Source: Campylorhamphus procurvoides (taxonomy: Eukaryota; Chordata; Aves; Passeriformes; Dendrocolaptidae). Taken from it: a DNA stretch of 64,000 bases. The DNA is taken from contig WBMV01002647.1 of the NCBI GenBank assembly GCA_013396655.1, positions 191,414 to 255,413 on the forward strand, given 5' to 3'. Every line of letters begins with the position of its first letter. Position 1 is the first letter of the stretch. The notes beneath the pieces were generated by a model, which was not told the DNA's origin, ran no database searches, and worked only from the letters and a program-made list of their open reading frames with translations. This document shows positions 13,762 to 58,410 of this stretch, in pieces. Made by a program: the position numbers and the translations under genes.

Positions 13762-13767
13762 TGTAGG

Positions 13768-14352
13768 TGTGGGGATTAGGGAATCTTACCAGATGTGGCG
13801 GAGAAATAGAAGTCCGGAGAAGACCGAATCAGAAGCGGAGACGGCGGTTTGAAGACAGTTGGGGAGCGAAAGAAGACAACAAAAAGAAGACCCACTAGTT
13901 ATTTAGTTAATTGTTAGACAGTTTTGTATTGTATTAGATTAGAAGCAGAATAGGCATAATTCCGATTGTTTTGATTGGTTTGTACCCCAGTTTTCTCCCC
14001 CGTTACACCTTCCTATTGGTTGATAAGTTCCCGGGTTCGGGTATGGCTCCCATTGGTCCCCGGTCGCCCTAGGCAATGGCATGAAGTCCATAGCCAAATA
14101 GGGCTGACCACTCCCCTAGTCCTTCCCATTTCCACTCCCCTTAGGCGGAGTTCTTCTCCCTCACCCTATTGCATGCCAGACCCTCTTGTCAATCCCTCAG
14201 ATCCACCCCTTTTTCTAGACCTTTCCATCCCGGGCTCTATATAAGCTGATGTTCTGCTGAATAAAGTGCTGGTAGCTGGCTGTCAGCCATTTTCTCTTAA
14301 CCTGCGTTGAGTCATCCTTCTCTCCTTTCCCTCAACGGGTCTGCGACGCGCA
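13768..14352 (+). repeat. 5' LTR of the young provirus
   Basis: It starts TGTGGGGATT and ends GCGACGCGCA. It is 585 bp, the same length as the 3' LTR, with three substitutions between them. It is C/T-rich and CpG-bearing. The last residues of env are encoded in the corresponding start of the 3' copy. Confidence 0.95.
13974..14265 (+). promoter_or_regulatory. U3 promoter: three inverted CCAAT boxes, TATA box, poly(A) signal
   Basis: ATTGG (reverse of CCAAT, the NF-Y core) occurs at 13974-13978, 14015-14019 and 14052-14056, spaced 41 and 37 bp. TATATAA is at 14238-14244 and AATAAA at 14260-14265. A start site about 30 bp after the TATA box would fall at roughly 14266-14272, so the poly(A) signal would lie in U3 and be present only at transcript 3' ends. 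Binding by NF-Y is inferred from the motif. The 3' LTR repeats all these at +7701. Confidence 0.75.
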
Positions 14353-14354
14353 TC

Positions 14355-14372
14355 TGGCGCCCGAACAGGGAC
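14355..14372 (+). promoter_or_regulatory. Primer-binding site, tRNA-Lys3 type, exact
   Basis: TGGCGCCCGAACAGGGAC follows the LTR end by two bases and matches the tRNA-Lys3 type primer site used by lentiviruses and MMTV at all 18 positions. Alpharetroviruses use tRNA-Trp, so the primer sets this element apart from that genus despite its env. Confidence 0.95.
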
Positions 14373-14738
14373 CCTGAAGTGGTATCCCTGATTCTTCTTA
14401 TTCGACCGTGAGTGGAGAAGAGCTCCTCACACTCCGGTCTTCGCTGATCTCCTCTTGCGGAAGAGTCGCCAAAAGCCACCCAGCGATCTCGCTGAGTGGT
14501 GCCGACTACGACGAGCCAGCAGCACCTCCGAGAGCATGACCCCGGTGCAGAGATCCCTGCGGCGTTGAGATCGTCATCGGCTTCAGCTCGCCTGAGGATC
14601 CGGATCCGTCGGGGAGAAGGTGAGCCGCAAGAGAAGACAAACATTCCCTAACCTTCCAGAGCCCTTTACCCGAATCACAGTTACTTCCCTAGTTATATAG
14701 TTTTATTCGCCCAGTTCTACTGTTAATCTCGTTCCATA
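14373..14738 (+). other. Untranslated leader with a strong splice donor
   Basis: About 366 bases between primer site and gag start. GAAG|GTGAGC at 14616-14625 (GT at 14620-14621) is a near-consensus 5' splice site and the likely donor for the spliced env message. The packaging signal would be expected here, but I cannot identify it from primary sequence. An open frame on the other strand is chance. Confidence 0.65.
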
Positions 14739-16847
14739 ATGGGCATTTTTTCATGCCTAAATTGTTGTGGGTCGAAATCCCGAATTATCTATCAAGATTT
14801 AAAATTTTACTTAAGACGTAACTCCCATCCCATTCAAAAAGAATCACTGAAATACTTAGCCGAATGGATAGCCGAAAATAACAAAACCGTAAACTATCCA
14901 ATTACATACAAAGAATGGGATGAGCTTGGATTCGACCTGTGGGACCAGTCCCATAACAAGAACAAGACACTGGCCTGGAGGGCACTAGCAGCCTGGGACA
15001 TGATTTTGCATGTCCTACCCTTGCCTGCACCCATTACACCCGACGTGCCACACGACCCCCCTCACGCGGTTCGTTTGGTGGCGGGAAACGCCTACAGACA
15101 ACAGGGACAGCCTGCGCGACAAAATGGCGTCGGGACCCCTCAGGGACATGCTGAATCACCCTCGCAAAATGGCGGCCAAGCCTCGCCTCAAGTTATGTCA
15201 CCAAATGAACGAGGCTGCTCCTCTGACATGATAACCACACCCCCTGTAGTCAACGTCACTCTCCAAAAGGCGGAGACTTCAGCCCCACCCCCTACCACCA
15301 GTGACATCACCAAGGGGTGGGAACAGCTAGACCATGTGATCAAGGCTATGCTAGACTTGAGTCACATGTTGGAGGACCGGAAGCAAGATGGCGGCGCCCA
15401 TCAGCCGCCACTTCCGGCCCAAGATGGCTGCCCCCAGAGTAACACACTTCCGCCCGACAACCATAAACATCCGGTCCAAGATGGCCGCGCCCTTGTGCAG
15501 GCCCCGCCGACAGTCAATCAACACGAAGTCCCGAAACCCCTAGTATCTCCAGTTGATCCCTACCTAGACACCTTACCGCTAGATCCCACAGCCCCTCCTG
15601 ATCCAGCAGAAGCCAGGTATGAAGAGATCAGAAGAAGAACAGAAGACGACGGAAATCTAGATCTAGTTTCTGCGTTCCCAGTGTTTTACGATCCAGGAAA
15701 ACCACCTGCCTGGGAACCATTGAGCTACCCTTACATGAAAGATCTCCGTAAGGCAGTAGTAGAATGCGGCATAGCAGCCCCTTACACCCTAAACGTACTG
15801 AAAAATTTCTTTGATGCGTATACCCTAATACGTAGAGACATCGATGTCATCACCAGAGCCATACTAAATTCATTAGAACATTCGACCTTTATGGACGAAT
15901 GGAGGCTACTAGTAAAGAGGTATATAGAAAATAATTACAGAACCCAAGGCACGCCATTAACCCATATAATGGACAGATTCATGGGCACAGGTTTGTTTAT
16001 GGACACAGCGCGGCAAACACGCACCCCTCAGCACGAGCTGAACATCACGAAACAACTCGCATACCAAGCTCTCACTGTTGTCGCTTCAAATACTTCAATC
16101 ACTTCCTCATACACAAAAATCTTCCAAGAAGGGAATGAGCCATTTACTAAGTATGCTGAGAGGCTCAAAGATTCCATCAACAAGCAGGTAGCCAATCCGA
16201 AGATGCAAGACGAACTCTTTAGAAGGATAATAATAGAAAACGCCAATGAGGATTGCCAACCTATCCTCCAAGCACTGAAAGACCCTACAGTCACTGAAAT
16301 GATAAAAGCGTGCCGAAACGTCAACACAGTCGCGCACAAGAAACAGGCCAGAGTAGAATCATTGAAAGAGGCTTTTGTGGCCTCCGCTCAAATACAAGCA
16401 GATTCTAACAAACATCTAGTAGAAGCGATACAAGATAGCCAATATACGATAGCAGACCAGATAGTTAACATCGCACAGCAAGTCCAAGGAGTAGCCGATG
16501 GAGTTTCCAAAGAAGTGTCTGAGTTTAAAGATTTTGTGAAAATAGGACCTTGCCTACATTGCAAAGGATTAGGCCACCTAATAAAAGACTGCCCGCACAA
16601 ACAATCACGCTCACCGCCTCCTAACACGCCATGTCCAAGATGCGGCAAGGGCTACCACTGGGCGCGACAATGTCAGTCCAAATATAATGTAGAAGGGAAA
16701 CTAATATCACCCAGTTCTTCCCCCAAACCATCAGAAGGTCCAAAATCAGGAAACGGAGCTGCGAGCGCTCGGGGAAGCGCGACGACAACAAATCTTCCCC
16801 AGTGCCCGTGGTACTCCCCAAAACTGAAAACTTTAAAAGAGGAGTAA
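14739..16847 (+). CDS. gag: Gag polyprotein, 702 aa, open
   Basis: The frame encodes the structural polyprotein. The start ATG is followed by Gly2 and a Cys-rich N terminus (MGIFSC), a myristoylation-type signal for membrane targeting. A basic and Trp-rich matrix region follows, then a Pro-rich variable region (about residues 85-290) with five QDG/QNG tripeptides. The capsid region has a major homology region near residues 463-485 (GNEPFTKYAERL). Two CX2CX4HX4C zinc knuckles lie at residues 605-618 and 632-645 in nucleocapsid. The reading frame ends at TAA 16845-16847, seven bases after a slippery heptamer. The absence of stops over 702 codons fits a young insertion. The Pro-rich region doubles as a YY1/ETS-like motif cluster in the DNA. 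Confidence 0.95.
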   Translation: MGIFSCLNCCGSKSRIIYQDLKFYLRRNSHPIQKESLKYLAEWIAENNKTVNYPITYKEWDELGFDLWDQSHNKNKTLAWRALAAWDMILHVLPLPAPITPDVPHDPPHAVRLVAGNAYRQQGQPARQNGVGTPQGHAESPSQNGGQASPQVMSPNERGCSSDMITTPPVVNVTLQKAETSAPPPTTSDITKGWEQLDHVIKAMLDLSHMLEDRKQDGGAHQPPLPAQDGCPQSNTLPPDNHKHPVQDGRALVQAPPTVNQHEVPKPLVSPVDPYLDTLPLDPTAPPDPAEARYEEIRRRTEDDGNLDLVSAFPVFYDPGKPPAWEPLSYPYMKDLRKAVVECGIAAPYTLNVLKNFFDAYTLIRRDIDVITRAILNSLEHSTFMDEWRLLVKRYIENNYRTQGTPLTHIMDRFMGTGLFMDTARQTRTPQHELNITKQLAYQALTVVASNTSITSSYTKIFQEGNEPFTKYAERLKDSINKQVANPKMQDELFRRIIIENANEDCQPILQALKDPTVTEMIKACRNVNTVAHKKQARVESLKEAFVASAQIQADSNKHLVEAIQDSQYTIADQIVNIAQQVQGVADGVSKEVSEFKDFVKIGPCLHCKGLGHLIKDCPHKQSRSPPPNTPCPRCGKGYHWARQCQSKYNVEGKLISPSSSPKPSEGPKSGNGAASARGSATTTNLPQCPWYSPKLKTLKEE
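15121..15488 (+). promoter_or_regulatory. Cluster of five YY1-like motifs with ETS-like neighbours inside gag
   Basis: AAAATGGCG at 15121-15129, AAAATGGCGGC at 15166-15176, CAAGATGGCGGC at 15384-15395, CAAGATGGCTGC at 15420-15431 and CAAGATGGCCGC at 15477-15488 all match or nearly match the YY1 core (AAnATGGCGGC). Adjacent sequences ACCGGAAG (just before 15384), CACTTCCGG (just before 15420), ACTTCCG (about 15446) and CATCCGG (just before 15477) resemble ETS/GABP sites. In protein the same DNA encodes repeated QDG/QNG tripeptides, so the repeats may also reflect protein duplication. Function is inference. Confidence 0.55.
16832..16838 (+). promoter_or_regulatory. Gag-Pro -1 frameshift heptamer TTTAAAA
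   Basis: T TTA AAA is correctly phased to the gag frame (codons 16833-16835 and 16836-16838) and follows the X XXY YYZ rule. It lies seven bases before the gag stop. A -1 slip joins the frame that runs into the protease. The downstream structure was not computed. Confidence 0.85.
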
Positions 16848-17515
16848 CTTCTTTTTATTTGCAGCTTACTTCATCAGTTTTGTTAGATTCTTGTTCACCT
16901 ACCCAGGTTGATACCGAGTTTTGTTCTGACCCTCCAGTTTCTTCTTTTACAGGCTTGATTCTCTCCCATCCAGATTTGACAGACGAAGGGGCACAAGTTG
17001 TCCCGTTCGTGACCCAAATACTTTGCGATTCACCTATTACTGTTTCGTTATTAACAGGATCTCCTCCAGTATTCATCTCGACAGGGAAGCAAATCACGGA
17101 GGTCGTTCCCCTAGACTTGCTGACATGCCATGACAGTACCATCCAGAATGATACTAGCGTGCAGGTAATGTGGGCACAACCTGTTTCACGCCACCATCCT
17201 ACACTCCAGTGCTCCATTTATCATTCCGGCGACCGCAACCCAATTCCGGTCTTAGGGTTGATAGACACTGGCGCTGATGTCACCATCATTGCGCAGCAGG
17301 ACTGGCCTAAGCACTGGAAACTAAAGTCTCATCCTAATCACATCACTGGGGTGGGAGGATCTCTAGCAACTCAAATTAGTGAAAATTTAATATCGATAAT
17401 CGGACCTGATCATAAACTGGCAACAACATTCCCGTTCGTTCTCCCCGTACCCATGACGCTATGCGGTAGGGACGTATTAAGCCAATGGAGTTTCTCCCTT
17501 TCTACAAATTTGTAA
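16838..17515 (+). CDS. pro: Protease (with a possible dUTPase-like N-terminal part), open
   Basis: This frame is -1 to gag and is entered by slippage; an internal ATG at 16802 lies inside gag and need not be used. The aspartic protease signature IDTGADVTI has its catalytic D-T-G at 17264-17272, followed by the GGRDVL-like C-terminal motif (CGRDVL). The protease would act as a dimer to cleave Gag and Gag-Pro-Pol. The 130 or so residues ahead of it include a stretch (about 16955-17105) whose pattern of hydrophobic strands and Gly turns is reminiscent of a dUTPase C-terminal half, placed as in betaretroviruses. No clear dUTPase catalytic motifs remain, so that call is tentative. The frame ends at TAA 17513-17515 directly after a second slippery heptamer. 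Confidence 0.88.
   Translation, partial: RGVTSFYLQLTSSVLLDSCSPTQVDTEFCSDPPVSSFTGLILSHPDLTDEGAQVVPFVTQILCDSPITVSLLTGSPPVFISTGKQITEVVPLDLLTCHDSTIQNDTSVQVMWAQPVSRHHPTLQCSIYHSGDRNPIPVLGLIDTGADVTIIAQQDWPKHWKLKSHPNHITGVGGSLATQISENLISIIGPDHKLATTFPFVLPVPMTLCGRDVLSQWSFSLSTNL
17506..17512 (+). promoter_or_regulatory. Pro-Pol -1 frameshift heptamer AAATTTG
   Basis: A AAT TTG is phased to the protease frame (codons 17507-17509 and 17510-17512) and sits immediately before its stop codon. A -1 slip leads directly into the reverse transcriptase frame. RSV uses the close relative AAATTTA. Its efficiency cannot be judged from sequence. Confidence 0.75.
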
Positions 17516-20138
17516 CATCGGCCACTGACGAGCAGCTTACCCCTGCCCTAACTTGGCTCACCGATGAGCCAGTTTGGGTAGATCAGTGGCCTTTGAGGGG
17601 AGAGAAGCTGCATTCTCTTAATAATCTTGTCCACGAACAGCTGGAGAAGAAACATATCATTCCATCCACCAGTCCATGGAATTCTCCAGTCTTCATGGTC
17701 AAGAAAAAGAACGGAAATTGGCGATTAGTCCATGACCTCAGAAAAATCAATGCGGTCATCGAGCCTATGGGGGCAGTTCAACCAGGCATGCCCTCGCCCA
17801 GCATGATCCCCCAAGGCTCCCAAATTAAGGTCATAGACATCAAAGACTGTTTTTTTCAAATTCCTCTAAACGCTAGAGATTCTCCACGTTTTGCCTTTTC
17901 CGTGCCATCAGTTAACGTGCCGGAACCGGCAAAACGATACCAATGGACGGTGTTACCCCAGGGCATGAGATACTCTCCTACGATTTGCCAGAACGTGATA
18001 GTGCAGTTGCTATCGGCCGTGAGGAGAGCATTCCCTGAAGTAATAATATATCATTACATGGACGATATTCTCTTAGCATCATCAGACCCAAATTTGCTCA
18101 ATTTGGCTACCGATTCAACCATTAAAATTCTACACGCCAATAATTTTGAGATCTCCCCCGAGAAAATTCAATCTACCGCCCCTTGGCAGTACCTCGGGTG
18201 GAAGATCTCCGAAAAGACAATCAGACCAGCAAGTTTCCTTAAATTCAAATATTAAGACACTAAATGAGTTACAGTCACTGTTAGGATCAATAAATTGGAT
18301 ACGACCGAATCTAGGTCTTTCAAATGACGACCTCCAGCCACTGTTTACGTTGTTGAAGGGAAACCCAAACCTTAATTCCCATTGAGAACTCACCAGCGAA
18401 GCCCAAGACACGCTCCAACTAGTTAATCGCAAGCTGCAATCCCCGATGACAACTAGAAAAATACCAGATGTTCCACCGGTAGTTTTCATTTTCAGGGGAA
18501 AAACACAACCTTTTGCGGCCATAGGGCAAATCAACACCAACTCGCCCATTTCCAAGAGCGCTGTTGTCTGGGAGTGGGTCTTTCTTCACAACCAGTTCCC
18601 AAAAACAGTAACTTGCCTGCCTGAGATGATATCCCAGCTCTGTCACAAGACCAGGCTTAGGACGTGGGAGCTTACAGGAGAAGATCCTCACACCATTTAT
18701 TTTCCTTTCACGAATAAATCCTTCCAGACATTACTTCAATCATCCGACGACTTTCAGTTTGCCCTTGCTGACTTCACTGGAAAATTGTCTATTCACTTAC
18801 CCAAAGTTCCGCTGCTTCAGTTCATATCTAACGTCCAATTATACCCTGACTTCATGTATTCTTCCACTCCTCTTTCCAATGCTATGACAGTGTTTACCGA
18901 CGGATCGGGAAAATCGAAAAAAGCTGTAGTGTGCTGGAAGGTAGGAGAAGCCTGGCAGAGTGACGTGCATACTGCCGAACACTCCCCTCAGTTGGTCGAG
19001 CTCTCCGCAGTATGCAGAGCCTTTATTTCCTGGAAATCTCAACATCATTTCTGACTCGCATTACGTAGTAGGAATCGTCCAGTGGATAGAGTACGCCAGT
19101 CTAAAAGAAGTATCCAACCCTCTCCTGGCATCGCTTCTCAAGACCCTTTCTAGAGAAATTCATTCCCGCACTAACAAATTTTTCATCTGCCATACCAGGT
19201 CGCACACGCACCTACCAGGACCAATAGCTGAGGGAAATTCAGTCGCGGACTTGTTGGTAAGTGCAGCTGTCGTCCCTAATCGTGTGGAGCAGGCTCGCCT
19301 CTCCCATGATTTTTTCCATCAGGGGGCCAAAGCTCTAAGAAAGAGCTTTGGCTTGACACAATCCCAGGCACGAGCGATCGTCTCAGCCTGTGGAGACTCC
19401 CAACAAGTCGCCCCGCTAGCTCCTGGCGGTGAGAACCCCAGAGGGCTTCGTGCATGCCAAGTATGGCAGATGGATGTCACCCAATTCGGCCCTTTTGGAA
19501 AACTAAAATATATACATGTTTTGATTGATACCTTTCCTGGCCTTATAGTGGCAACTGCGCACACTGGCGAGAAAGCCAAAGACGTAAAAAGACATCTCTC
19601 GTCTGCTTTTGCCATTATGGGAGTCCCAGAAAAGATAAAGACCAACAATGGCCCCGCTTATACGTCCAATTCAATAAAAATCTTTTTAGATATGTGGGGA
19701 GTGAAACATGTCACCGGCATTCCTCACTCATCAACTGGACAAGCCATTGTCGAGAGAGCCCACAAAACATTAAAGAATATGCTCATTAAACAAAGAAGGG
19801 GGAATACAGGTCTATCCCCTCATGAGCAATTAAATAAGGCTCTCTATGTCCTAAATTTTTTGAACGGATTAGATGAACACAACCTATCACCAGTAGAAAA
19901 GCATTTCGGCCCTAAAAGAGACCTGCAAAATTCTGGCGCCAAAGTACTTTATAAAAACTTAGAATCAGGCCAATGGGAAGGTCCCTTTCCTATAGTCACA
20001 TGGGGAAGGGGCTATGCTTGTCTTTTGACAGAGAGTGGTCCGAGATGGGTGCCAGCGAGACTCGTAGGGCCCTTCTTGTCATCTTCGCCGTCATCGCTAT
20101 CTCCTCCACTGGGTGATCCCGCCCGCGCAACAGACTGA
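17512..20138 (+). pseudogene. pol: Pol (reverse transcriptase, RNase H, integrase), broken
   Basis: Pol copies RNA to DNA and integrates it. The RT part is at 17512-18255 with YMDD at 18055-18066 and the LPQGM motif upstream. RNase H has a catalytic Asp at 18899-18901 (FTDGSG) and a later ISDS motif. Integrase has HHCC-type and D-D-E signatures, with the first Asp at 19473-19475 and Glu at 19752-19754. Breaks: the frame changes by net +1 near 18216-18245, TGA occurs at 18383-18385, and the frame changes by net +1 again near 19025-19045. Missense: the second integrase catalytic position (19644-19646) reads Asn instead of Asp, and the last zinc-binding Cys (19398-19400) reads Ser. The last frame ends at 20138 and overlaps the env start. 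Either change in integrase alone should abolish or impair its function. Confidence 0.93.
19985..20044 (+). promoter_or_regulatory. Candidate env splice acceptors
   Basis: Two pyrimidine tracts end in AG upstream of the env ATG: CCCTTTCCTATAG ending at 19995 and TTGTCTTTTGACAG ending at 20031. Either could pair with the donor at 14620 to make subgenomic env mRNA. The second is 13 bases from the ATG at 20045. Confidence 0.5.
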
Positions 20139-21553
20139 TACCCTCAAGAATAATCAAAAATCAAAACATCCAATTAGAAAAACAAAAATTGGCTAAAGTA
20201 TCTGAGCAGAGAAATTCCAATTCGGCCTCCGAATTGTACCATGGGAACATTTGGGTCCAGCTCGCAGATATGATGGGAAAGGATAACCTGTGCCTCTCGG
20301 TGACAGACCCAGGAGATCCTTTCCGATCATGTCTTGTTGGGGTTCCCTGGTGCCAAACTCAGTGGCAGCAGTACCTTGGGAACTACACCCCCTACTGCGA
20401 CACAATGTCCCACGAGTACGCGCATTTCTCGAGGTGTTACAGCCAGGGCACACTACCACCGTACTGGCCACGACCTCCACGTCAGGCCGCAGAATTCTCC
20501 TTTCCGAGAGAACCATTCCAGGACGTAAAGATTAAAGGCTCCCTTCCAGCCCCTTTCTGTTTCTATTTCACTTTTAGAACCAGATCATTCCCCCCTTCAT
20601 ACATAGATGTCAGTCTGACTTTTAAGTCCAATTATTCCAATTTCGACTCTTGGTGTCACCGAAATTTAGACATAATAACCCAGTTCGTTTCCCCACTCAA
20701 GAATGTCAACTTACCGAACAACTCTTTCCTTATCTGTGGGAACCGAATGTGGAAGGGCATTCCTGCTGGCGCCCATGGAGGCCCTTGCACATTCGGGCAG
20801 CTAACCATCCTGACCCCAGATAAGAGAATCGCCAGTCAGCTTCTCCAGGCGAACAAAGGACAGCATCTCCGCCCACGCCGAGACACCGCCATCCCAGCCC
20901 TTCCTTTCAGTGAGTCGTGCGATTCAGTAATCCATTACTGGACAGCCACACAGGACATTTTAGGGTCCATATTCGCACCGATTGGCACTTCTCACGCATT
21001 AAAATTAATTAACAAATTAGGCTGTTGGGTGTCCAAGGAGGTAAATGCCACTTCGGCAGCCTTGGACGGGTTGCTTTCAGATACTGATACCTTAAGGAAA
21101 GCGACCCTGCAGAACCGCGCGGCCATTGACTACCTCCTCCTGATCAATGGGCATGGGTGCGATGAGTTTGAGGGGATGTGTTGCCTCAACCTCTCCACCC
21201 AGTCCAGATCCATACATCAGCCAATTAATGATCTCAGGGGGCTAGTCAATGAACTGAAAGTGAAAGACCAGAATAAACCCACCGAATTCTGGGATTGGTT
21301 CCCTAATCTAGGCATCTCCCAGGGGCTAAAAAGGCTTTTTGTTCTGTTAATTTTGGGGATTATCATTATTGGCATAGTAATCGTCCTAATTTCTTGTGCT
21401 TTATTTTGTATTAAGAGTTTCTGTGTTAAAAGTCTCACAGCCCTCTTCTTAAACAAAGAAGGGGGAGATGTGGGGATTAGGGAATCTTACCAGATGTGGC
21501 GGAGAAATAGAAGTCCGGAGAAGACCGAATCAGAAGCGGAGACGGCGGTTTGA
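20045..21553 (+). pseudogene. env: Env glycoprotein, alpharetrovirus-like, with early stop
   Basis: The ATG at 20045 opens a signal-peptide-like stretch (RR then a hydrophobic core ALLVIFAVIAI) that overlaps the pol end. An in-frame TGA at 20114-20116 cuts it. The same frame is then open from 20117 to TGA 21551-21553 with no usable ATG near its start. Surface subunit: many cysteines and N-glycosylation motifs, no CXXC of the gamma type seen. Furin-type site RPRR at 20870-20881. Transmembrane subunit: cysteines at 20918-20920 and 21023-21025 enclose an internal fusion-loop-like segment 34 residues long, close to the ASLV arrangement. The CX6CC motif is at 21158-21184 and a hydrophobic anchor at about 21332-21412. 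The last 28 codons lie within the 3' LTR. The role, entry by receptor binding and fusion, is from the family. As it stands the frame lacks a continuous signal peptide and start. Confidence 0.9.
21455..21468 (+). promoter_or_regulatory. Polypurine tract of the young provirus
   Basis: AAAGAAGGGGGAGA directly abuts the TG of the 3' LTR, the place of plus-strand priming. It lies inside the env reading frame. Confidence 0.92.
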
Positions 21554-22053
21554 AGACAGTTGGGGAGCGAAAGAAGACAACAAAAAGAAGACCCACTAGT
21601 TATTTAGTTAATTGTTAGACAGTTTTGTATTGTATTAGATTAGAAGCAGAATAGGCATAATTCCGATTGTTTTGATTGGTTTGTACCCCAGTTTTCTCCC
21701 CCGTTACACCTTCCTATTGGTTGATAAGTTCCCGGGTTCGGGTATGGCTCCCATTGGTCCCCGGTCGCCCTAGGCAATGGCATGAAGTCCATAGCCAAAT
21801 AGGGCTGACCACTCCCCTAGTCCTTCCCATTTCCACTCCCCTTAGGCGGAGTTCTTCTCCCTCACCCTATTGCATGCCAGACCCTCTTGTCAATCCCTCA
21901 GATCCACCCCTTTTTCTAGACTTTTCCATCCCGGGCTCTATATAAGCTGATGTTCTGCTGAATAAAGTGCTGGTAGCTGGCTGTCAGCCATTTTCTCTTA
22001 ACCTGCGTTGAGTCATCCTTCTCTCCTTTCCCTCAACGGGTCTGCAACGCACA
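21469..22053 (+). repeat. 3' LTR of the young provirus
   Basis: 585 bp, TGTGGGGATT to GCAACGCACA. Relative to the 5' LTR it differs by one C/T change in U3 (near 21916) and two G/A changes close to its 3' end (CGACGCGCA against CAACGCACA). The three inverted CCAAT boxes (from 21675, 21716 and 21753), TATATAA at 21939-21945 and AATAAA at 21961-21966 are all kept. Confidence 0.95.
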
Positions 22054-22059
22054 TGTAGG

Positions 22060-24200: not shown

Positions 24201-27160
24201 AAGCTGAAGTGAGCCTGACTGGAAATGAATGGCAAAAACATCCCTTTGTGACTGGCCCAGTGGCCCCATGCATCCTTTGCAAACACTACCCCAGGAGAGT
24301 GTATTTCAAGGACTTAAAAGGGCACCGTTGGGCTTTTTGGGATAGCTGCTGTGGAGTCAGAGGAAATCAGACAGCAGAAATACCTTGTCTTGTCTCTCAG
24401 AGGACCCTTCTGCAGTGGTACTACTGAGGTTCAAAGAAAAACAGATACCTATTGCTACAACAACAGTGCACCATCAACAATACTACACCAGCCAAGACTG
24501 TGATTCCCACCCATAACATGATTCCTGAACTGGAGAGCCAACAGGTGATCAGCAAGACTTACTCAACCTTTAATAGTCCTACATGGCCAGTACATAAATC
24601 CAGTGGAGAGTGGAGACTGATGATGGACTATCGTGGCCTGAAGGAAGTCACATGACCATTGAGTGACACTGTGCCCAACATGCTGGAACTTCAGTATGAG
24701 CTGGAGTCCGAGGGAGCAAAGTGGTGTCACCATCAACATTGCCAATGCTTTTTTCTCAATTCTTTTGGCGGCAGAGTGCCAGCCACAGTTTGCTTTCACC
24801 TGAAGGGCCATCCAGTACACCTGGAAAAGATTGGCCCAGGGGTGAAAACAGCACCACCATTTGCCATGGACTGATCCAGACTGCACTGGAAAAGGGTGAG
24901 GCTCCAGAACACCCGCAATTGATGACATTATCATATGGGGCAACACAGTCCATATAAGAGGAAGTTTTTGAGAAAGGGGAAAGATAATTCAAATCCTCCT
25001 GAAGGCCAGTTTTGACATTAAACGAAGTAAGGTCAAGGGACTGGCCCAAGAAACTATTTTTAGGAGTAAAATCGCAAGATGAACATTGTCCAATTCCAAT
25101 GGATGTCGTCAACAAAATAGCTGCTATATCCCCACCAACCAGCAAAAAGGAAACACAAGCTTTCCTGGGTGCTGTGGGTTTCTGGAGGGTGCATTTCCAG
25201 ACTGCAGTCAAATTTAAAGTTCTCTCTATCATGTGACCCAGAAGAAGAATGATTTCAAGTGGGGTCCTGAAAAACAACAGGCTTTTGAACAAACTAAACA
25301 GGAGATTGTTCATACAGTAGCCCTTGGACCAGTCAGGACAGGGCAAGATGTGAAAAACGTGCTCTACACTGCAGCTGGGGAGAATGGTTCTTCCTGGAGT
25401 CTCTGGCAAAGACTCAAGGACAACTCCTGGATTTCTGGTGTCAGGGATACAAAGGATCTGAGGCCTGTTGCATCCCAACTGAAAAAGAGATACTGGCAGC
25501 TAATGAAGGAGTTTGAGCTGCTTCAAAATTGATTGGCACCAAAGCACCACTCTTCCTGGTGCCCTGACTGCCAGTGCTGGGCTGGATTTTCAGAGGGAAA
25601 GTCCCTCTCACATATCATGCCACTGGTATTATATGGATTAAGTGGGTTGTGCTGATCACCCAGCAAGCTTGAATAGGAAACCCCAATTGCCCAAGGATCT
25701 TGGAGACCATCATGAACTGGCCTAAAGACAAAAATTTTGGACTATCATCAGAAAAGAATGAGAAGGTGATACATGCTGAGGAGGCCCGACCATACAATCA
25801 ACTATCTGAAAATGAAAAACAGTATGCTGTCTTTACTGACAGTTCCTGCCATATTGTAGGGATATATCAAAAGTGGAAAGCTACCATATGGAGTCCTATG
25901 CGGTGAGTCACAGAAGATATCGAGAGACAAGGTGGATCAAATCAGATTGCAGAGCTGAAAGCCATCCAGCTGGCTTTAGATATCACTGAAATAGAGAAAT
26001 GGCTGGTGCCCTGTCTCTACACTGACAGAGAGATGATAGCAAATGCTCTGGGAGGGTGGCTGGACTAATGAAAAAAGATCAGCTAGCAGCACAGAGGGAA
26101 ACCCAGCTGGGCTGCTGAAGTGTGGCAAGAAACACTGCCCGGGTGAAGAAGTTTGCTGTAAGTCATGCAGATGAACACATACTCAAGAGTCAGGCTACTG
26201 AAGAACATTGCAAAACTGGGCAGGTGGATTATGCTGCCAAGATTGAAGTGTCTCAGGTACATCTGGACTGGCAACATAAGCGTGAATTATTTCTGGTTTG
26301 GTGGGCCCATGATGCCTCAGGTCATCAGGAAGAGATGCAACAACCAGATGGGCTCATGATTGAGGGGTGGACTTAACCACAGACACTATTTCCCATGTTA
26401 TTCGTAACTGTGAAACGTGCTGCAGTCAAACAGGCTAAGTGAGTAAAGCCTCTGTGGTATGGGGTTTATTTCAACCTCAGTGGTTGAAATAAAAATATGG
26501 AGAGGCCTGGCAGATTGATTACATCACACTCCCACAAACCTGCCATGGCAAGTGCTAAGTGATTACAATGGCAGAAACAACCGCTGGATGGCTGGAGACA
26601 TACCCTGTGCCTCACACCATTGCCTGGAACACCGTCTTGGGCCTTGAAAAGCTATTCCTGTGACGAGATGACACTCCAGAAAGAACTAAGTCAGACAATT
26701 GGACTAATTTCAAAAATACCCTCAGAGGCCCCTGGGCCAGAGAGGATGGTACTGAGTGGTATATCATATTCCCTATCATGCACCAGCCTCTGGGAAAATT
26801 GAACAGGTTCAATGGACTGTTAAAAACCACGTTGAAGGCAATGGGCAATGGGACATTCAAACGTTCTTGCAGAGGCCACCTAATTAGGTAACACTAGAGG
26901 TTTTACTGATCAATCTCGCCCTGCCCAATAAAAACCTCCATCCTCCACAGAAGGGGATAAAGTCCCCTAAAGTCGCACATATGAAGAATGTGTTAGGGAA
27001 GACAGTTTGGATTAGTCCTGCCTCAAGCAAAGGCAAACCCCTGCGTGGGATTGTTTTTGCTCAAGGATCTGTGTGCACTTGCTGGGTAATGCAGAAAGAC
27101 AGGGAAACACAATGTACACCTCAAGGGGACCTGATTTTTGGGTGAGAACAGTCTGTGATG
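24201..27160 (+). pseudogene. Pol remnant of the old ERVL-type provirus
   Basis: Decayed reverse transcriptase, RNase H and integrase in order. RT phrases include SSGEWRLMMDYRGLKEVT (24600-24653) and TSKKETQAFLGAVGFWR (about 25140-25190). The YxDD region near 24916-24945 is disrupted by a shift. RNase H keeps a catalytic-type Asp at 25838-25840 (FTDSS) and a YTDRE motif near 26022. Integrase keeps a zinc-finger-like HDASGH (about 26310) and CETCC (about 26411), and WQID with Asp at 26517-26519. Reading requires many frame changes. The 240-codon open frame on the opposite strand (24756-25478) is a shadow. A conserved-looking stretch (26895-27160) after integrase could be the last part of pol. 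Confidence 0.85.
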
Positions 27161-30900: not shown

Positions 30901-33900
30901 GTTTGCACATATACATAAAATTCCCCAAGGTCACTGCTGTGATTGGTGGTGTTTCCTTCAGCAGGCAGCGAGGATAGTGTATGAACATCCTTCTGTAAAA
31001 CACTCTGCAGCTGGTGAAGGGAGTTCTCACAATGTGGACAGGAAACTGGAAGAGGAGAGGTCAACATGCATAATGATGGGGCTGTCACTCAACAGCAGTC
31101 CTAACAAACTGGAAAACTTGGTCAACAGAAACTTCATAAAGTTCACAAAAAACAAATGCAAAGTCCTCTATCTGGAACAGAACAATGTCATGAAACTGTA
31201 AAGTTTAGAGAATCAACTAGAAAGCAGCTTTCCAAAAAAGGACCCGGGACTTCTGATAGGCGAGACATGTTTACGCAGCTCAGCAGTGCACTTCTGCAGA
31301 AATCAAGGCCAGTCACAACTGAGCTGCATTAGCTAGAAGGAAAACCAGCAGGTTCAAGGGAGTTGTTATTCGCTTCTATTCAGCACAGCACATTTGTAAT
31401 CGCACCACTCTAAGGCAGTGTCCTGTTTTGGACTAGCTAGTAGGGTATTTACAAGCTAAAGCAAGCCTAGTGGAAGGCCAACATGATAGTTTGGTGCCTG
31501 AATCAGGTAAGGTAGGGAAAAGGATAGAAAACACGGGAAATAATGCCACAATAGCAGCCATGGAACACCCTTAGAAGGAGGTGCTTTCATTTTAGAGAAA
31601 AACTCGTTTAATTTACTTATTTACACCTAGTCCCAGTGGTCTTGTCAGGTTTCCCTGCAGTTACACTTAAGACAAATGCTGCCAGCAAACAAGGGCTCCT
31701 CAGCTTCCCTGGGCTTTGCCTCAAGATGTTCTGATAGATGTGATTTTTTTGGTTTTGAGTACAGTTAATGGAGGGTTTTTAGCAGGTGTTAGGAGCTGAC
31801 ACTAATTAGTCTCTCCACCTTCCCATCTCTATAACTCATTAGGATATACTGCAAGCCATTTGTGTCTGTAGTTGTGTCCAGATCTTAACAACCTGCTAAT
31901 CCAGGTGCCAGCAATAAATGCCATTCTATAGCCATTTTTTTCCACGATTCTGGTACCATGACACCCATTCACTCTCTATTAATACCAACCTTAGTGTTTC
32001 TGTCCTCTAAAGGACAAATGGGTTTCTTTAAATTGAAAAGGGGAATTGATGTGGAAATTGAATTGCTGCCTTGAATTCCCTATACGTAGCCACAGAGTAA
32101 ACAGAACCGGACTGCTCTTGGAGGAAATATTAAGTAAATATAAGGAAAAGAATCTTCACAGCAATGATGCTCAAATACCGAGCTAAATCTGTCAAGGAAA
32201 CTTTCCTGTCTCATCATCCAGGACCCACTCTTGGCAGTCACATTCCCACCACCACAGACTTTACCTGCTGGGACTGAAGCCCGTTTGCAGCCGATGGCTC
32301 CAGTGAGCTGATGGGTGACCCAACTGACTTCCTACACACACACTCTCATGCAGTCAGATAAAATTTCCTTACTGGCTCAGACCCAGGTTTCCCCTAACAG
32401 TCTCAGATCTCTAGATCCTTAAAGGAATTTAATCGTGCTGCCATGATGCTGAAACACCTCAAGCTGGTGCCAAGGAGGGACAACAAAGGAAGCCCTGGGC
32501 TTTTTTGGCCTCACAGTCTATGCACAGTGACCTGGGTCTTCCTGCTAAGTCCTCGGCTCCCGCTGTATCTCTGAGCGTCTGGTCACCTGGCTGGGCCACA
32601 GGTCCCCATGCCCTTTGTTGTTCAAAGGGTTAGCACCAGTTCCCAACCTCGTGCTTCAGGCTCCTGCCATTTCCTGCCACCCAGAGTTTAATCTGCAGCT
32701 TGCACACTGAGCTGTCTGCACTAAACATATTATTCAACACTCTCCATCATCCTGCTGTGGATGGGGAACATGTAAGCAGCTGGATGAGAGCATGACAGTA
32801 TGAACTTTACTTCCTACTTTCCTTGAGGAATCTACATTCTGCAAACATTTGTCACCACATACCAAGAAAATGACTTATGCCTGTTGTCTCCACCTTAAAA
32901 CTAATAGGAGTTGTACACCTATTTTTAAATCCAGACACGGGTGTGAATGGAGAAGTCTTTACGCCTAGAGTGCTTATACTCCTAAGGATGATGAATGTTT
33001 GACTTTCAGAGACTGGGGAGGTGGGTACACATGGTTGCCTCTCCTTCTTAAGGAGGAACTGTTCAGGAACAGCTTGACAATGTCAGTGAAAGAAATAAAC
33101 TGAGCTTGCCGTGGGTTGCTGCCACTAATGGGGTTGTTTACTCCTTTGCTGCACCCCATTTGTGTGGCAGACCTACTCTAGAGTTGGTGGCAGCATTTTG
33201 CTGGACTCTCTGGTGGGTCCGCTCAACTCGTGGATCTGGCAAAACATCAATCTTGGAGGATGGGAATAGCATCTAGTGTGTTAGCAAACTAAATTGGCTC
33301 AGTGAAGTACCTAACAAATGCCAGAGGTGAAACTGGGGAAGTCTTTCAGCAGCAGCCGCCTGCTAGGTCTACTCAGCTGAATCGTCAAACCAAAGGCAGA
33401 CATATACCTTATTCCTTCCCCCTGAGGGGTGTAAGGTTGCCACCTCAATGCTGTCACAAGCATGGAGGTCTGAAAATAAAGTTTCCACTGAAACTACCAG
33501 AAATACAGCAGGGCTGGCTAAAGTCCAGGCACACATACCACCTCAGCGTGGCACAGAACCATGTCACAGAGAAGTCATGCCAGCCACTGCCTCCAAACAG
33601 CAGAGCTGCATCCCATGGCACCCACTGGATGAGGCAGGCTGTCCTTCTTCTGCCCCACATGCTGCTGGAGGAAATTGCTCCACAGAGAGAAGTCAAATCT
33701 CCAGGCAATATCCTCACCAAAACGGAGTCAGGCCAGTTTCCTTTAACCTGCAAAAATGGGGGATGGGTTTGGGGAAAGAAAAAAAGGAAGCTGCATTCTG
33801 TGTTGATGGGGTGACAAAGCCAGGGTGTGCTTATCTTCCTGGTGTCTGTGTGCGGCAGAAGGGAGAGGGTAACACCCTGGTTTTCCTCCTGTACTGACAG

Positions 33901-34200
33901 GGTGACCGTGGGAGATGGGCAGGCACAGGAAGGCCTTTCTCCGCCATGGTGGTGGCCGCAGTGGAGCTGCACTGCCTCTTGCAGGGCTTTGACAAGAGAG
34001 CACAGCTGGGTTCCCATGTCAGCAGAGGAGAGTACGTGTGGAAGGGGAGCTAGAAGCCACATCCAAGCATGGACGGGCAAGAAGCTGCATGCAGAGAGCA
34101 GCACACTACTGTGGGGGACAGGGAGCACCCTGAGAGCCAACATGTCCCTGCAGAGGCTTTCACCGAAAACAGCAAAGCTTGTTTTCTGCACTTCTCATCC
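27956..34200. other. Gene-free stretch leading to a CpG island
   Basis: No supported gene or repeat. A TG-rich tract lies at about 30851-30882. From about 33300 the GC content rises and long overlapping open frames appear on both strands (up to 245 codons on minus at 33454-34191). Their mutual overlap and lack of any family signature argue for chance. Confidence 0.5.
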
Positions 34201-34209
34201 TTAAGTGTC

Positions 34210-34900
34210 ACAAAAACAAATCTGCAAAACACACGGCATTTCCCTGACTGTGGAGGAGAGGAAGATTGTGGGTAGGAAGCGAGGGCGGAGAGAGCCCAGG
34301 CCGGCTGGGCTCGGGGACAGCAGCAACCCCACAGGCCGGCTGTGGTGGGAGGCAGGGAGGGAGGGAGGCAGGGAGGCCGGGGAAGGGGCCGGGAACAGCC
34401 CGCAGATCCGGCCCGGGCCGGTTGGAGCCGGCTGGAGCCGGCTGGAGCCGGTCGGGGCGCTGAGGGACGCGGCAGCTCCCCAGGCCGTCCCTGCGCCGGG
34501 CGGGAGCTGCTCTCCGGGGCGGATCGGCAGCGCCCTCGGAGCGGAGCCCGGCCTCGCTGCAGCCGCGCGCCAGAGCCGCCTCCCGGCGGGAATCCGCTCC
34601 TGGCTTCCCAGAGCCGCGCGGGCAGGCGGCGCCGGTGTCGGGTTTCAGCCGGAGAGGGCGGCGGGGGGAGCGGAGCGGCGGGGCCGGGGGAGGGCGGGGA
34701 GNNNNNNNNNNNNNNNNNNNNNNNNNNNNNNNNNNNNNNNNNGGGTTGTCCGCGCACATCCCGCCCCGGCCCGCGCGAGTAAGGGGCTATCCCGGCCCGG
34801 GGTGTGCCCTGCGAGTGGCAGGCAGGGCTGTGGGCAGCGCCGCTGAGGCAGCCCGGCCTGGGTGGGGAGCCTTTGGCTCGCTGGTCATGCGTGGGGAAAG
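34210..34900. promoter_or_regulatory. CpG island, probable promoter or first exon, with assembly gap
   Basis: Very GC- and CpG-rich compared with its surroundings, which is the usual signature of a vertebrate promoter. It holds a G-run stretch (about 34345-34384) able to form G-quadruplexes and a 10-bp tandem repeat around GGAGCCGGCT (34421-34452). CGA|GTAAGG near 34779 could be a weak splice donor on plus. Transcription direction and gene identity are not visible. Open frames across it include unknown residues and are not credible. Confidence 0.7.
34702..34742. other. Assembly gap, 41 N
   Basis: A run of N inside the CpG island, typical of GC-rich sequence that failed to assemble. Any feature crossing it is uncertain. 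Confidence 1.
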
Positions 34901-35071
34901 GTGCTTGGGTTTCCCGGGTAGCACTTAGGCACAGATTTTTGGACCGAAATACCCCCTTTTCTGGATACCTCTTGCACTGTATTTGTAAATATATAAGTAT
35001 TGCCTTTGGTCTGCTGCGGTACCATTCGAACTACAAAATGGCATCTGAACCCTTTATTAGGGGAAGCAACA

Positions 35072-55612: not shown

Positions 55613-58410
55613 AAGGAAGATCTCTATACTGGTGTTTGGCCACAAAACTTTGCACTGCCAAAACATACAATGAAATAATTTATTAATATAAACAGGGAGG
55701 ACTGTTGCTTTTCACATGAAAGAAAGGCAGTTATTTATATGTTGCTAAGAAATGATCTATTTTGCTGTTTAATAGCAAAAATAACTTTTAATTTGTAAAG
55801 TAGAGCAACCTATCCTAGGATGCTCATGAACTAGAGCATTATTGCTAATTGTCTTAGTGCAGAGCATGGCAGCTTTAGTTGAAACCCTCAGTAGCTGACT
55901 GTTTTCCTCAAGCATAGGCATCTCATATTCTGAAGCCCAGCTGCAAATAAACCCCACGGTTTAAAGAAGATACACATTTTGTCCCACACCAACTTCCCCT
56001 TGACAGTCACATCACAGGCTGCAGCCAGGGGATGTGCTTTGGGGAAGAACAGCACACTGGGAGACATGTGCCATGGACATGGCTTGTCATTACAGGCTCT
56101 CTCCCACTCCTCATTCACCACATGCCACACTGCGCCAATAGGCACAATCTTCAGGGTCAGAATGAGAGGCAGCAGCACTGCACCACCAGTGCGTGAGCTG
56201 TGGGTGACGTAAAATGAGACAAGAAATTTTTGAGTATTTTACCTATTGGCGTTACTAATGCTACTAAAAAGAGAAAAGTACAGTCCAAGTGACACGATTT
56301 TAGGGAGCAACTCCACTGCCTGAGAGTGATATGCTTAGTGGGCTCCTTCTGATCTTGGTCTCCACCAAGAAAACCAGAACTGGGGCAGGGACAGTCTATA
56401 ATGCCCTTTCACATCATGGCAGGCTCTTTGCTTGCCCTCACAGTGGATCAGCAAGGGGGGGCACACAGCAGACTGGCAGGACAAATAGCACATGCAGGGA
56501 GCTATCCCCAGGGATGGATGGAACCAAGCCACATGGTCCTAGTCCAACGCTGCCCCAGCAAACCCAGCACCTTCTACAGACACTGGCTGCACCGTTCCTG
56601 CCTCAGCCCATGCTTGGTCCTGCTGTTTGCCCTGTTCGGAGCCTGTTTTCTAGGTACATTCCTGCTCCCTGACCCCACTCCCCACTTTGCTCCAAACTTT
56701 CTGGAGGTGCCTTATGCCCCTGAGCCCCATTGCCAGGCAACATCACATCCCTTATGTATTGCCAGGACACAGCTGCCATGGCCATGGGTCCCTGGAGGCC
56801 CCAAGACCAGGCCGTGTTCCCTGCTTTGCCCTACACAGTTATGGGATTACTGGCCACTCCACAACTCTGAAAAACACAATGAAAACATCTTGTTCATGTT
56901 TTTATTCACTAAAAGCAGAACCTGGGCTGTGCAACTGCCCATCACACTTCTCACTGCAGTCATGATTCAGCCAACAGGCAGACATGTTGTGTTTAACTTC
57001 CATGTACGCCATATGTTGATGGAAGTAGTTTTCTCTGAAGATGCCTAAGGGAGTTGAAAAGCATTTGTGTGTGTGCATGCTATCATGAAGGGGTCATCTT
57101 GAGTGAGACCTCTTCTAGAGAAACCACTCTTTCCATTCTAACAGTGAACTGGCAAGTAAGTAATAAGTAAAACCATGGTGCTAATCCTTGCCAAGAAGCA
57201 GAATGGTATAGGGAAAAACCAAAACCCTTCTAGCAAATGGGACATTACTTCTGAGTAATTTGAAGAAGCCCCTTTAAAATGAGAGTGATCAAGGCCACTA
57301 AAAAGAGAAAAAAAAAGTAGTACAAAAAACTTACTCATCCAAGCAAAATCTGAAACAATACAAACCTATGACCCCTTTGCAACATGTAGGTGGTTTTCCT
57401 AAATAAATAGCATCACCTCCTTTTCAGTGTTACTGTGACATAATTCCAGTTCTCAGTTTGGATGGATGAATATAAAACAATCTTGGTTTTCTGTTGTTGC
57501 TCCAATGCTGTAGCTTACAGGTTTCCCAATTGGTAGCTATGTAATTCTGTGCTGGTTTTGCTGTTAGGTCACCAGAATTATGAGTGAAATTTCTCTTTTT
57601 TTCAACTGAGATTTCTCCCTTAGAAATATGTCCCTACCCATCAAAATGAAGAAACTGAGTAGTTTGGTTTGAATTTTTCTAAATTGTTTGCTTCCTTTTG
57701 AAACAAATGAGGTACATTTGAAAACATGGTTTTGTTAATGATTTTACTTACATGATCAGCTATGTCAAGAAGACATTAAAATTCCAACTTGTAAGACTAT
57801 AGCAGGATAACACAAACAAAACAAGAACCTGTAGCAGCTTATGTTTAAAGGAAGTAATGTTTCAGTATTTTTACCAAAAGGCAAAGAATAAAGGAAAATA
57901 TATGATGTATTACTCAATAAGATCTTTGGGCTTTTCTTGGTTTGAGGTAGGGGAGGTGGAAAGGTGGTATTTTAATATTGGGTTTTATTTCTCCCTACCC
58001 AATTTTTTTTCATGGGCAATAAATTAATCTTACCAAGTCAAGTCTGTTTTGTCAGTGGCGTTAACTGGTAATTGGTGTCATTGTCTATCTTGCCTATCCT
58101 AAACTTGTCCACCCTATTTTTGCAACTGATCCTGTTGAAGCAGGGGAGTGAGAGAGCAGCTGGGTGTTCATCTGACTGTTAAACAAGGCTAATCCAGCAC
58201 AGTCTTAGTGTTTTAGTGTCCAACAGGGGGCTGAAATAATTAGAGATAATGACAGTAATTGGGAGAGGTAATGCACAAAACTTGAACTGGACATTGTCAG
58301 TGCATGGAATAATTTGGAGGAGCTTTGATATTGGTGTGTGATGGAGATTTATTGTGTGTGTACATATTGTTCACTCTTGCCAGTGCCATGATGGTGTGAC
58401 TTCGATTTTG
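55613..58410. other. Stretch without a supported gene; contains a 215-codon open frame
   Basis: From about 56300 to 57050 base composition is GC-richer than around it, and an ATG-started frame runs at 56401-57048 (215 codons) with one hydrophobic segment (CLVLLFALFGACFLGTFLL). I do not recognise it and other frames there are also open, so it is not called a gene. The rest shows nothing. Confidence 0.45.

Follow-up and report, generated by a model that had tools for sequence, protein, structure and literature searches.

The window, by which we mean the whole stretch of 64,000 nucleotides analyzed here, contains at positions 13768-22053 a provirus with two 585-bp long terminal repeats (LTRs) and inner genes. 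The LTRs have TG...CA ends and differ at 3 of 585 sites, in every case by a transition. The features that delimit the element are the following.

13762..13767, no strand: target site duplication TGTAGG, left copy
13768..14352, + strand: 5′ LTR, 585 bp
14355..14372, + strand: primer binding site, 18/18 against the tRNA-Lys3 motif
21455..21468, + strand: polypurine tract AAAGAAGGGGGAGA, abutting the 3′ LTR
21469..22053, + strand: 3′ LTR, 585 bp
22054..22059, no strand: target site duplication TGTAGG, right copy

Birds accumulate about 2 × 10−9 substitutions per site per year; at this rate, the LTR differences would place the insertion roughly 1.3 million years ago, with a wide error. The primer site was called with the 18-nucleotide tRNA-Lys3 motif, and the ancestral virus would, by analogy with known retroviruses, have primed with this tRNA. 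To judge from the relatives of the element and a genome size of 1.02 Gb, the host is very likely a bird.

The observed/expected CpG ratio exceeded 0.6 in all seven 1-kb steps of the element (14001-21000), as expected of a young insertion. Outside the element, a single window step, 34001-35000, rose above 0.55: it has a G+C content of 64%, a CpG ratio of 0.73, short GC-rich tandem arrays at 34347-34692, and a run of 41 N at 34702-34742, and looks like a CpG island containing an assembly gap. The rest of the window yielded no further LTR copy, and none of nine tested open frames outside the provirus (including 33448-34843, 24756-25475, and 56401-57045) matched Pfam at an E-value of 0.01 or lower.

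Coding content and damage

The inner part of the provirus carries the following genes and motifs.

14739..16847, + strand: gag, 702 open codons, with the p24 N- and C-terminal domains (Pfam)
15585, + strand: PTAP motif in gag
16551 and 16632, + strand: two CCHC knuckles in gag
16817 and 16832 (16817..16838), + strand: gag-to-pro slippery heptamers CCCAAAA and TTTAAAA, in frame for a -1 shift
16688..17515, + strand: pro frame, with the DTG/DSG motif of an aspartyl protease at 17264
17506..17512, + strand: pro-to-pol slippery heptamer AAATTTG, in frame for a -1 shift, with a strong predicted stem on its 3′ side
17470..18255, + strand: pol piece 1, reverse transcriptase (RT), YMDD at 18055
18386..19054, + strand: pol piece 2, in a different frame, with the first part of RNase H (Pfam hit under the cut-off)
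18945..20138, + strand: pol piece 3, in the third frame, with the last part of RNase H followed by integrase
20114-20116, + strand: stop codon in the env frame, directly 3′ of a hydrophobic leader
20117..21553, + strand: env frame, ending inside the 3′ LTR, Pfam Avian_gp85
20918-21025, + strand: fusion region flanked by Cys 244 and Cys 279
21158, + strand: CX6CC motif

The sequence-only reading of this DNA had described a young provirus at 13768..22053 with an exact tRNA-Lys3 primer site, a protease in a frame separate from gag, two -1 shift sites, and a YMDD motif, and each of these proved to be present. It did not mention the breaks in pol and env described next.

The gag and pro genes are open. 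Barring assembly errors at the breaks, the pol and env genes are damaged. The pol gene is broken over three frames, and the second acidic catalytic position of the integrase (19644) is an asparagine, where the one other copy compared has an aspartate. Past its stop codon, the env frame stays open to 21550. The position of this stop is read through in two closer copies, and two more distant copies have the leader in frame with env. Within 20000-20285, the hydrophobic leader and the end of pol overlap in different frames. Broken pol and env frames can stem from sequencing error, which raises the question of whether the whole structure is an assembly chimera or a nested insertion of two elements. 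Against this, the LTRs match each other, there is one target duplication, and the polypurine tract is in place; moreover, the copy C136 has nearly the same LTR spacing (7,704 against 7,701 in the window), and its RT and env follow each other as they do here. We regard the probability of such an artifact as close to negligible and take the element for a fairly young provirus that is now defective and, as assembled, unable to complete a cycle alone.

Frameshift sites, capsid, and protease

With gag set as frame 0, pro lies in the -1 frame and pol starts after a further step of -1. The overlap of gag and pro contains two in-frame heptamers, where single-base shuffles gave a mean of 0.16 and reached two or more in 23 of 2000 cases; the overlap of pro and pol contains one, against a mean of 0.044, with at least one in 83 of 2000 shuffles. 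Predicted RNA folding 3′ of the pro-pol heptamer was much stronger than in shuffled sequences (z -3.69), whereas folding 3′ of the gag-pro heptamers was not above them (z -0.73). By analogy with other retroviruses, two -1 shifts would yield Gag, Gag-Pro, and Gag-Pro-Pol. Gag begins with MGIFSCL. In the pro frame, Pfam listed no dUTPase even at E-values as high as 10, nor did it match a G-patch; the frame stops four residues past the protease match.

We judged genus affinities from bit scores against Protein Data Bank (PDB) chains, most of whose names do not state the virus, and from identities in a structure-based search. The best match of the capsid was a chain named "Gag protein," virus unnamed (91 bits), followed by HERV-K (60 bits), which is the nearest chain whose name states a virus among the best 60 of 131; no chain named as Rous sarcoma virus (RSV) appeared among those 60. 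The protease scored 50 bits to a chain that is presumably from M-PMV and 45 and 42 bits to RSV- or myeloblastosis-type chains; these scores tell little, since tethered HIV dimers reached 63 bits via two stretches. Capsid and protease appear to lean weakly to the beta side.

Affinities of the reverse transcriptase and integrase

Against PDB chains, the RT scored 262 bits to its top match, which we take to be HERV-K, followed by HIV-2 at 148 bits, and no alpharetroviral RT was named among the best 60 of 205 chains. In the structure-based search of viral models, the RT was 48% identical to avian leukosis virus (ALV, 236 columns), to a human endogenous retrovirus (228 columns), and to a python endogenous retrovirus (231 columns) alike; rabbit ERV-H reached 53%, but over 161 columns only, and the top rank went to an unnamed protein (44% over 243 columns). 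Judged by these identities, the RT appears intermediate between alpha and beta.

The integrase gave 248 bits to a chain that we assume to be from mouse mammary tumor virus (MMTV) and 160 bits to the best chain that we assume to be from RSV; the chain actually named RSV scored 134 bits. A second natural copy gave 255 and 166 bits in the same comparison, again with partly presumed chain identities. By these scores, the integrase is clearly beta-leaning, nearer to MMTV than to RSV. The "intermediate" label therefore rests mainly on the RT identities from one structure-based search. Acting as in known retroviruses, this beta-like integrase would have inserted the provirus with the 6-bp duplication.

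The gag-pro-pol region had been called betaretrovirus-like. Its layout, primer site, and integrase agree with that description, but the RT, being as close to ALV as to the human endogenous retrovirus, does not. A plain betaretrovirus was put aside for this reason and because neither a G-patch nor a dUTPase was found.

Two further searches were negative. An RT scan of viral contigs, run twice, returned 1 and 29 pattern-matching stretches, none of which was confirmed, and a tblastn comparison of the integrase piece with phage records gave no match.

An Env of avian gamma type

The predicted Env has an RPRR cleavage site ahead of its fusion region, and CXXC is absent from its 454 residues. Avian gamma-type Envs are described as having a fusion region between two cysteines past the cleavage site and a CX6CC motif (PMC3758190, excerpt), and the alpharetroviral surface subunit (SU) as being without CXXC (PMC9967133, excerpt). 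Against PDB chains, the avian sarcoma/leukosis virus (ASLV) transmembrane subunit (TM) was the best match at 61 bits, with the next at 30.4 in a group of chains mostly named as filovirus GP2; syncytin-2 (24 bits) and another retroviral TM (4jf3, 16 bits) ranked lower. In a structure search with the predicted Env model, the top named viral matches were EAV-HP (25% over 478 columns) and ALV ev/J (37% over 174 columns), followed by gamma-type Envs at ranks three to five and RSV at rank six; the model is poor (mean pLDDT 55), so these matches are hints only. Taken together, these comparisons place the putative Env as avian gamma type, nearest to ASLV, EAV-HP, and ev/J. Its description as alpha-like, with an internal fusion loop between two cysteines, CX6CC, and no CXXC, agrees with the Avian_gp85 match, the ASLV score, and the residues found at each position. 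By analogy with viruses of the ALV kind, entry would have used a spike in which SU and TM are disulfide-linked.

For the TM part of 20189-21550, named filovirus GP2 chains (about 29 bits or less) scored somewhat above syncytin-2. This is in line with the excerpt of PMC3758190, according to which the TM of avian gamma-type Envs is related to the fusion proteins of filoviruses.

Pairing of pol and env across loci and birds

Searching the same genome with a piece of the LTR returned at least 40 matches, including the two in the window (40 of 117 candidates were scored), and searching with the RT returned 140, many of them partial or distant and some loci being counted repeatedly. From the RT match list we picked 19 loci and compared the stretch downstream of each. 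An env homologue followed the RT at 12 of the 19. The other seven had no env match, and CX6CC was also absent from their open frames of at least 60 residues; because every downstream stretch was taken at one constant distance, a missing match may reflect deletion or misplacement. The same env might also accompany other pol lineages in this genome.

The two genes have diverged together. Over the 12 loci, the best-match identities of RT and Env to the window had a Spearman correlation of 0.91. Distance matrices for 16 entries (the window, the 12 loci, and three bird gene models, with Env taken from residue 171 on) gave a Mantel r of 0.875, a value reached in none of 5000 permutations, and among these entries identity to the window went down to 51% for RT and 40% for Env.

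The same pairing occurs in other birds. Three gene models, two from swallows and one from a white-eye (P0045, P0127, and P0131), contain this type of RT and Env in proviral order, although bird gene models may fuse pieces of different elements. A fourth, the swallow model P0032, scored 71 bits to an MMTV-type and 28 bits to an RSV-type integrase and 56 bits to the ASLV TM; the C-terminal part of its integrase precedes the zinc-binding part, which marks it as a patchwork model and makes it weak support for the pairing. Relatives of Env in the protein database numbered 32 of 4077 candidates, or 50 of 7291 when an alignment was used, and all the named ones among those listed were from birds. For the RT of copy C136, there were 591 relatives among 2164 candidates, and the named ones among the 120 listed were likewise all from birds. 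The closest RT among the matches listed, from Sclerurus mexicanus, was 71% identical to C136 and 70% identical to the RT of the window.

A single element with the look of two genera, bounded by young LTRs, might suggest that a beta-like provirus lately gained an ALV-like env in this genome or this copy. Three findings make such a recent event very improbable: the pairing recurs at 12 of the 19 loci, where RT identity falls to about 50%; gene models of other birds have it too; and the RT and Env distances correlate instead of conflicting. A recent or unique recombinant is not supported. The pairing of pol and env is not recent; it belongs to an old, varied avian lineage in which the two diverged jointly.

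Origin of the lineage

We consider it probable that the element, a defective provirus, descends from a class II retrovirus lineage that has persisted in birds for a long time, stands between Alpharetrovirus and Betaretrovirus, and has had an EAV-HP/ALV-like env since before the compared subfamilies split. The data directly show how the provirus is built, that its pol and env diverged jointly, and that gene models of other birds contain both.

A true betaretrovirus that gained an alpharetrovirus env in birds once, long ago, and then diversified would also account for much of the data. The integrase is nearer to MMTV than to RSV in two copies, the capsid is nearest to HERV-K among PDB chains whose name gives the virus, pro has its own frame, there is a Lys primer site, and the closest relatives of Env are ASLV, EAV-HP, and ev/J. 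Class II backbones that acquired a foreign env are on record, namely MPMV, PyERV, and TgERV-F (excerpts of PMC3758190 and PMC10536682), and beta-related endogenous retroviruses (ERVs) with a gamma-type env are described in general terms (PMC9967133, excerpt). Against such an ancestor stand an RT equally close to ALV and to the human endogenous retrovirus and a pro frame in which Pfam found neither G-patch nor dUTPase. We hold this older recombination to be unlikely. Of the two readings proposed from sequence alone, a recombinant avian lineage or a genus-intermediate family, the second fits best.

The literature searched, in part as excerpts and including PMC3758190, PMC10536682, PMC9967133, PMC4272516, PMC1224870, PMC5006616, PMC10820513, and PMC11067759, did not yield an account of an avian gamma-type env joined to a gag-pro-pol of beta-like or alpha-beta kind; we do not claim that the combination is unpublished. 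With its beta-leaning integrase, apparently intermediate RT, and this Env, the lineage offers material on which the origin of the Env and the direction of its movement can be tested, and such tests are feasible on ordinary public bird genomes.

Comparison with known retroviruses

Like MMTV, HERV-K, and other betaretroviruses, the provirus uses a different frame for each of gag, pro, and pol, with two -1 shifts between them, and its integrase is closest to MMTV, chain identities being partly presumed. Betaretroviruses have a dUTPase ahead of the protease and a C-terminal G-patch in Pro (mammalian members), and type B betaretroviruses have a beta-type TM without the third cysteine. In contrast, Pfam found no dUTPase or G-patch in the provirus, its TM has CX6CC, and its RT resembles ALV as closely as it does the human element.

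Alpharetroviruses use a tRNA-Trp primer and encode the protease at the end of gag. The provirus differs in both respects, with the Lys3 primer motif at 14355 and pro outside the gag frame, in the -1 frame at 16688-17515. It resembles Alpharetrovirus in having an Env of the avian gamma type, as defined in the excerpt of PMC3758190. With chicken EAV-HP and ALV ev/J, the likeness lies in Env, for which they were the top named matches of a low-confidence model. ALV-like ERVs proper were confined to Galliformes among 53 avian genomes (PMC10820513, excerpt).

TgERV-F is an avian class II element that mixes alpha and beta features and whose env, of the mammalian gamma type, has a separate history (excerpts of PMC3758190 and PMC10536682). 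The provirus shares the mixture of alpha and beta features in an avian class II element. The mammalian gamma type has CXXC in SU and an N-terminal fusion peptide, whereas the Env of the provirus is of another kind, without CXXC and with an internal fusion region flanked by cysteines.

The chicken alpha-beta ERVs, in print since 2005, are described with an intermediate Pol, -1/-1 frames, an often undetected dUTPase, and no G-patch (PMC1224870, excerpt). That group was defined on Pol, and we liken the provirus to it by these described traits rather than by sequence: both have a bird host, very likely so for the provirus, as well as -1/-1 frames, no G-patch, and, in the provirus, no dUTPase found.
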